Shown in pieces: positions 34,684 to 55,580 of a stretch of 64,000 nt of DNA (its first letter is position 1; each line of letters opens with the position of its first letter). Where the stretch lies: NCBI GenBank assembly GCA_027459645.1, contig DAIDHQ010000013.1:1-64000 (forward strand), given 5' to 3'. The stretch is from Vulcanimicrobiota bacterium (GTDB lineage Bacteria > Vulcanimicrobiota > Vulcanimicrobiia > Vulcanimicrobiales > Vulcanimicrobiaceae). The notes beneath the pieces were generated by a model. That model ran no database searches, was not told the origin of the DNA, and worked only from the letters and a program-made list of their open reading frames with translations. The position numbers were made by a program, and so were the translations under genes.

Positions 34684-34719
34684 AATGTCCTCAAAAATGA
34701 GACGGTGAGTGAAGAAATG

Positions 34720-34750
34720 GAAAGGCCTCCGAGCGTTTGCTGGAGGCCTT
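34720..34750 (-). terminator. Intrinsic terminator after the 35-aa gene
   Basis: On the minus strand AAGGCCTCC and GGAGGCCTT form a nine-pair stem around an eleven-base loop, followed by TCCATTTCTT. It lies 38 bases after the stop of the 35-aa ORF and closes a unit that begins with the promoter at 34946-34975. The U-run is weak. Confidence 0.7.
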
Positions 34751-34787
34751 CGGGTCAGAACGTCTACGAGTCGCTATGTCAAACCGG

Positions 34788-34895
34788 TTAGGTTCGACCA
34801 CGTAAACGAACGCGCGCCGAAGGCAACGACACCGGCATCCCGCCTCGTTGAGGCGCGAGCTGCCACGATGTGCCGAACGACATGGATCGATTCAT
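34788..34895 (-). CDS. 35-residue arginine-rich small protein with its own promoter and terminator
   Basis: This short frame has everything expected of a gene. A consensus AGGAGG (34907-34912) stands 11 bases before the ATG at 34895, a sigma70-type promoter lies upstream (34946-34975), and a hairpin terminator follows. The peptide (MNRSMSFGTSWQLAPQRGG, then MPVSLPSARVRLRGRT) has seven arginines, no cysteine, no membrane segment and a net positive charge, as in nucleic-acid-binding or ribosome-associated peptides. I do not recognise it. The transcript (about 225 nt) could also act as an RNA. Confidence 0.6.
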   Translation of the reverse strand: MNRSMSFGTSWQLAPQRGGMPVSLPSARVRLRGRT

Positions 34896-34945
34896 AGAGT
34901 TTCGTGCCTCCTTTCTCTGCGGAGCAAGCGGGACTGGTGCCGACA

Positions 34946-34975
34946 ACTGTAGCATGTAAAAAGTTTGCTTGTCAA
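34946..34975 (-). promoter_or_regulatory. Sigma70-type promoter for the 35-aa gene
   Basis: On the minus strand the -35 element TTGACA is perfect (34970-34975), the spacer is 18 bases, and the -10 element is TACAGT (34946-34951), four of six matches. Start of transcription would be near 34939, giving a 5' leader of about 44 bases. Confidence 0.65.
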
Positions 34976-35052
34976 AGCAGGGTGAGCGGCCGCAATGGGC
35001 CAATGTACCGCGGTCATCCTGACACGTCGCCAAGCCAAGGCGATCGAAATGC

Positions 35053-35127
35053 GTGCGTGTAGCTCAGTGGGAGAGCACCACCTTGACACGGTGGGGGTCG
35101 TAGGTTCAATCCCTACCACGCACACCA
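35053..35127 (+). tRNA. tRNA-Val (GAC)
   Basis: Plus-strand tRNA with encoded CCA. The acceptor GTGCGTG pairs with CACGCAC, the anticodon stem CCACC/GGTGG holds loop TTGACAC with anticodon GAC, and the T-arm is GTAGG-TTCAATC-CCTAC. It is the second valine tRNA in the window and is followed at once by a terminator. Confidence 0.95.
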
Positions 35128-55447: not shown

Positions 55448-55580
55448 CGTTCGCTGCCAGGAACCCGGTTGAACTCCGGGACGGTCGCGCCACTGTAAGC
55501 GGGGAGTCGCGGATCACCACTGCGCAAGCGGGAAGGCGTTCCGAATCATGGCGAGGATCCGCAAGTCAGGATACTGCTGC
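55448..55580 (+). promoter_or_regulatory. Cobalamin riboswitch
   Basis: Conserved cobalamin-aptamer blocks appear in order: GCCAGGAACCCGG, TCCGGGACGGTCGCGCCACT (containing the GCCACTG B12-box core), GCGGGAAGGCG, and the 3' block CCGCAAGTCAGGATAC. The cobB ATG lies only about 27 bases after the aptamer and has no exposed ribosome binding site, so adenosylcobalamin probably represses translation of the cob operon. A terminator-type expression platform is not visible. Confidence 0.92.

Follow-up and report, generated by a model that had tools for sequence, protein, structure and literature searches.

A probable translation-dependent attenuator RNA upstream of a conserved small basic protein gene in Vulcanimicrobiaceae

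A minus-strand leader in the 64,000-nt stretch of DNA analyzed here (the window, part of the 3.14-Mb draft genome G000) is most probably a translation-dependent transcription attenuator that controls the 65-aa gene at 34683-34486, as judged from comparative sequence analysis and RNA folding models. The sequence basis for this assignment is fourfold, comprising the conserved order of the block, a covarying antiterminator, an unconserved leader peptide and a conserved 65-aa protein. Which way the switch works, what signal it answers to and what role the 65-aa protein plays are inferred. The attenuator mechanism belongs to a known class; the RNA and protein families, like this particular case, appear to be new. 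The elements of the leader and its surroundings are listed below.

34975-34970, minus strand: -35 element TTGACA, perfect in 23 of 25 orthologous leaders
34954-34946, minus strand: extended -10 element TGC-TACAGT, with TACAGT at 34951-34946 and an 18-bp spacer from the -35 element; kept in relatives
34914-34907, minus strand: Shine-Dalgarno sequence (SD) of the leader ORF, AAAGGAGG, found in 25 of 25 orthologues
34895 (ATG) to 34788, minus strand: leader ORF of 35 codons plus TAA (MNRSMSFGTSWQLAPQRGGMPVSLPSARVRLRGRT); orthologues have 26-38 codons and an unconserved peptide sequence
34824-34817, minus strand: core of the putative antiterminator strand, GCCUUCGG, within the leader ORF; a section of a longer pairing
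34753-34746, minus strand: counterpart of the antiterminator core strand, CCGAAGGC, sharing positions with the 5' arm of the terminator
34751-34721, minus strand: intrinsic terminator hairpin, GAAGGCCTCC-(11-nt loop)-GGAGGCCTTT; the terminator region was aligned in relatives
34692-34688, minus strand: SD GAGGA of the putatively regulated gene; most orthologues are preceded by a GAGG-type SD
34683-34486, minus strand: putatively regulated 65-aa gene (MELWIESEVRVRRNELL...), with a basic, predicted all-helical product that has no known family
35053-35127, plus strand: tRNA-Val(GAC), the divergent conserved neighbor on the promoter side; tRNA sequence lies upstream of many orthologues

A preliminary description of this region had been right in placing TTGACA, an 18-base spacer, TACAGT, a strong SD, an ATG, a 35-codon ORF and a hairpin on the minus strand. 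The hairpin itself stands, although its stem has ten pairs and begins 36 nt past the leader stop (nine pairs and 38 bases had been given), and it is followed by CCATTTC. The leader peptide has six arginines rather than the seven claimed. The notion of a self-contained unit has to be given up, as the block runs on into the 65-aa gene, which is itself conserved and starts only 37 nt after the terminator. No promoter was detected between the two in the promoter scan. When taken alone, the promoter match of the window is at chance level (4 sites against 4.3 expected in 14.5 kb); its significance comes from conservation across orthologues. Rfam, scanned with both the gathering and a relaxed threshold, gave no relevant match in the leader, and no known attenuator or leader family at gathering score.

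We compared 25 leaders, namely 24 loci from a search with the 65-aa protein and one further locus (L056). In all of them the order is an extended -10 promoter, a strong SD, an ORF of 26-38 codons, a terminator and the 65-aa gene. Among genomes with a complete leader region, the block precedes the 65-aa gene in 25 out of 26. For instance, the terminator region was matched by DNA search in a congeneric genome (G001), where the same order runs into the orthologue of the 65-aa ORF. The promoter and ORF are conserved in relatives, as the preliminary description had required: each of the 24 leaders whose contig extends to the -35 element has TTGAC(A/T) and TGNTANNNT separated by 17-18 bp, and an ATG or GTG start with a strong SD occurs in all 25. 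Most orthologous hairpins resemble GGCCTCC...GGAGGCC and run into TTTTCATTTC or a comparable sequence. Six of the orthologous loci recur, their leaders unchanged, in Candidatus Eremiobacterota/Eremiobacteria contigs, which places the window in this phylum of uncultured soil bacteria. As foreseen, gene callers would miss this conserved promoter-SD-ORF-terminator block across the 25 leaders. Both ORFs would escape annotation, being short (26-38 codons and about 65 codons) and lacking a family model.

The single exception to the block order, in G036 (L010), has an aberrant, longer leader with a 46-codon ORF ahead of a good 65-aa orthologue, and may represent a rebuilt form or one under different regulation. 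In another leader (L019, in G043), a dispersed intergenic repeat of the CCTTCGAC...GCTCAGGATGACA type has apparently been inserted, lengthening the ORF; tandem repeats similar to this insert occur at a second locus of G036 (L089). One more case, in G040, came from a search with an RNA model and is followed by a small basic ORF that is divergent. There the full leader (MSILVFNNPMNLVGTYHLSRVLPSATSA; L086) precedes a basic 69-aa ORF with an hhalign probability of 32% to the 65-aa family, which suggests that faster-evolving family members may escape sequence searches. G000 carries one leader copy, its second RNA-model match being weak (E 0.03). The remaining weak matches to the RNA model (L082, L083, L085, L088, L089 and L090) were assigned to other terminators or repeats, and two further loci, L004 in G019 and L005 (the first DNA match in G005), were discarded as chance matches in other contexts.

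The search for an antiterminator used a 12-sequence alignment and anchored or duplex tests. Each leader ORF can pair through its 3' half with its own terminator, the complementary stretch there comprising the 5' flank, the 5' arm and the loop. Cognate ORF-terminator duplexes have a mean energy of -33.3 kcal/mol versus -28.0 kcal/mol for non-cognate ones, and none of 10,000 permutations was as good. Codon-shuffled ORF ends pair at -25.3 kcal/mol, and a control segment lying 5' of the ORF is barely specific (-19.6 vs -18.9). Shared ancestry is not the only source of this specificity, because the effect persists within a single genus (0 of 20,000) and in two sets with one leader per genus (147 and 2 of 20,000). 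On either side of the CCUUC:GAAGG core, the flanking columns form pairs in 74 of 105 cells, compared with 57.4 expected (2 of 20,000), and do so with several pair types; in this test the CCUUC motif gave no anchor for L021, L024, L026 and L029, four leaders whose ORFs are divergent. Examples of flanking pairs are CCTTCGTCC/GGACGAAGG in L012, GCCTTCGACG/CGTCGAAGGC in L008 and CCTCCGG/CTGGAGG in L019. With the alignment cut short of the terminator 3' arm, RNAalifold returned the antiterminator, and with the full-length alignment the terminator; it also gave a small mid-ORF hairpin and a GGGUC:GACCU pairing that could be an anti-antiterminator. The comparison thus points to a covarying antiterminator that overlaps the leader ORF and is mutually exclusive with the terminator. 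The pairing energy of the window's own leader is unexceptional, being equaled by 4% of random 60-mers.

The leader ORF is kept open without constraint on its product. Its frame is open in 25 of 25 leaders, with stops in the other two frames in 96% and 56% of them. Between pairs of related genomes, substitutions in the leader ORF are spread evenly over the codon positions (524:485:536) with no third-position excess, and dN is close to dS. By contrast, the 65-aa gene shows the third-position excess typical of a protein (728:562:1265). The closest pair of leaders (L016/L017) differs by three nonsynonymous and no synonymous changes in the ORF. The even distribution and the differences in this pair both indicate a peptide without protein-level selection, and on this comparative basis we regard translation of the leader as conserved and its peptide product as not. 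The case also illustrates how an ORF that acts as a sensor can be told from one encoding a functional small protein, by conservation of the ORF without that of its peptide. The alternative of a conserved small protein or a dual-function RNA, raised in the preliminary description, is therefore answered in part: an RNA function is supported by the covariation of the ORF 3' half with the terminator, whereas a conserved peptide is not. The alignment to relatives proposed there as a check likewise gave conserved ORF openness and pairing but no protein-type codon-position conservation.

The 335 leader residues encoded upstream of the switch strand are of mixed composition (Thr 13%, Asn 10%, Ser 10%) and contain no run of codons for a single amino acid. 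Asn, Thr and Ser are enriched among them and Glu is absent altogether. Thr or Ala forms the C terminus of the peptide in 18 of the 25 leaders. Candidate causes of this ending and of the residue bias are RNA structure near the stop and the composition of the initiation region.

The 65-aa ORF had been described as weak, yet the protein was found in 25 of the 99 genomes of the family by protein search and in 27 by profile search, and the comparison indicates that it is a real gene. In the remainder of the class, the only profile match was a doubtful, probably false one in G066, situated within an open frame of 610 aa. Among the invariant residues are W4, R38, A42, S49, A56 and R60. AlphaFold2 predicted one long helix (pLDDT 88, pTM 0.41). 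Searches of Pfam, NCBIfam, PHROGs and PDB with the family gave sub-threshold matches or none; in particular, PF06568/DUF1127 was not matched by the 65-aa protein, and no match rose above the Pfam cut-off in 60 genomes. Perhaps the protein binds RNA or the ribosome under translation stress.

According to the proposed mechanism, the strong promoter would drive synthesis of the leader RNA. A ribosome that initiates on the leader ORF and reaches its stop would melt or cover the 3' half of the ORF, and the terminator would then fold and end transcription after about 225 nt. If the leader is untranslated or the ribosome stalls early, the 3' half of the ORF (GGCGGG...GCCUUCGG-type) would instead pair with the terminator 5' arm and loop. 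With this antiterminator formed, RNA polymerase would read through and the small basic helical 65-aa protein would be produced. The leader peptide would act as the sensor, its amino-acid sequence hardly mattering. The signal is likely to be general translation capacity, as affected by an antibiotic, a block of initiation or a shortage of ribosomes or charged tRNA. The lack of a regulatory amino-acid run ahead of the switch strand is easier to reconcile with a general translation sensor than with a sensor of one amino acid or ligand.

Ensemble folding with the ribosome footprint masked gave mean predicted terminator occupancies of 0.41 with no ribosome, 0.38 with the ribosome at the start codon, 0.51 at mid-ORF and 0.77 at the stop. 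By these modeled occupancies, completed translation of the leader favors termination, and absent or early-stalled translation favors read-through. The predicted switch is missing in 5 of the 25 leaders and runs in the wrong direction in one. For the window leader, the terminator dominates at equilibrium in every ribosome state (0.73-0.98), so that the switch there must be kinetic; in the truncated transcript the predicted antiterminator occupancy is 0.84. This modeled equilibrium bias is the weakest point of the attenuator model.

Other explanations of the conserved block were weighed against a translation-sensing attenuator. An arrest peptide or an amino-acid-specific attenuator (TnaC-, ErmCL- or TrpL-like), responding to one ligand or charged tRNA, would share the anatomy of leader ORF, antiterminator and terminator, and the frequent terminal Thr or Ala could be read in its favor. 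We consider it unlikely, as the leaders have no regulatory codon run, the peptide drifts, and no residue upstream of the antiterminator strand is common to all leaders; the conserved peptide under purifying selection that would mark an arrest peptide is not found at 524:485:536. Still less probable is a conserved functional protein (30-38 aa) whose gene has a terminator to itself, with the 65-aa gene simply following and reached by read-through. Retention of the ORF, SD and start in 25 of 25 leaders would agree with such a protein, as would the recurring GGGS, GPS and final Thr or Ala. However, these recurring residues coincide with the pairing segments CCUUCG and GGGUCGA, the length varies between 26 and 38 codons, and the substitution pattern is that of the drifting sequence described above and not that of the 65-aa gene.

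The leader could also be a trans-acting sRNA of about 225 nt ending at the terminator, with an incidental ORF and a 65-aa gene expressed by leakage. The strong conserved promoter and terminator and the folding z-score of the window transcript (-2.4) fit this explanation, but the SD, start codon and open frame are kept in 25 of 25 leaders though the spacing varies, and the covariation is antiterminator-like and overlaps the terminator arm, as expected for control in cis. The constant presence of the 65-aa gene is no independent evidence here because that gene was the search bait; the G040 leader, which was found by the RNA model alone, also precedes a small basic ORF. We judge the sRNA explanation highly improbable, and trans-acting sRNA function, along with a type I toxin-antitoxin reading, was set aside for lack of support. 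Least credible is a lack of any regulation, the short leader simply ending in an ordinary intrinsic terminator and the complementarity being a coincidence. While the promoter and pairing of the window alone are within chance, the covariation extends across 25 leaders and holds within a single genus, and a conserved strong promoter would be useless to the gene if termination were constant.

A translation-sensing attenuator has several relatives among characterized systems. Amino-acid operon attenuators such as those of trp and ilvBNC (PMC11857589) combine, as here, a leader ORF with antiterminator and terminator hairpins that exclude each other; unlike them, the present leader has neither a regulatory codon run nor a biosynthetic operon. 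The closest documented system is the duf1127_1 leader of Sinorhizobium meliloti, which follows the same logic and also serves a small arginine-rich protein (PMC12218461). Translation of its uORF represses the downstream gene by premature termination, and the gene is induced by tetracycline; the RNA matters and the peptide does not, and monitoring of ribosome availability was proposed (PMC12218461). Termination there was attributed to Rho after an intrinsic-terminator candidate had been tested and rejected (PMC12218461), whereas an intrinsic terminator and a covarying antiterminator appear to be conserved here and the 65-aa protein is not a DUF1127 member. The Bacillus subtilis vmlR leader likewise contains a uORF, an intrinsic terminator and an antiterminator, and ribosome stalling on the uORF favors the antiterminator (PMC9226507). 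It differs in its target, an ABCF resistance ATPase as opposed to a 65-aa protein of no known family, and in its need for a separate anti-antiterminator and for stalling by cognate drugs (PMC9226507). In Escherichia coli, the multipurpose uORF toiL, upstream of topAI, senses several classes of translation inhibitors (PMC12121999). The general translation sensor proposed here on predictive grounds would share this multi-drug logic, but toiL works through Rho and by blocking the ribosome-binding site downstream, without an intrinsic-terminator switch (PMC12121999).

We tentatively put forward the more specific possibility of a lineage-specific sensor of translation failure, in which a drifting leader and an intrinsic-terminator attenuator would govern a new family of basic helical proteins serving when ribosomes are stalled or scarce, convergent with the S. 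meliloti uORF-DUF1127 system. This likeness suggests that induction of a small basic protein by translation failure may have evolved repeatedly. A title and abstract search of the open-licence literature gave no leader-peptide paper for Eremiobacterota and nothing relevant on small proteins; a conserved attenuator RNA and a small-protein family would thus be added to a little-studied, uncultured phylum.

On its far side, the cassette is bordered by a TPR protein or a 4HBT-type thioesterase. It is absent from G051 (L113) and G019 (L114), where the thioesterase gene abuts tRNA-Val, and G051 belongs to the same genus as two carriers. Such a clean absence of the whole cassette within a carrier genus indicates that it is gained or lost as a block. 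Elsewhere in the window, an ordinary cobalamin riboswitch lies on the plus strand at 55458-55576, just upstream of two ORFs of 451 aa and 1237 aa that by eye resemble cobyrinate diamide synthase and CobN, respectively.
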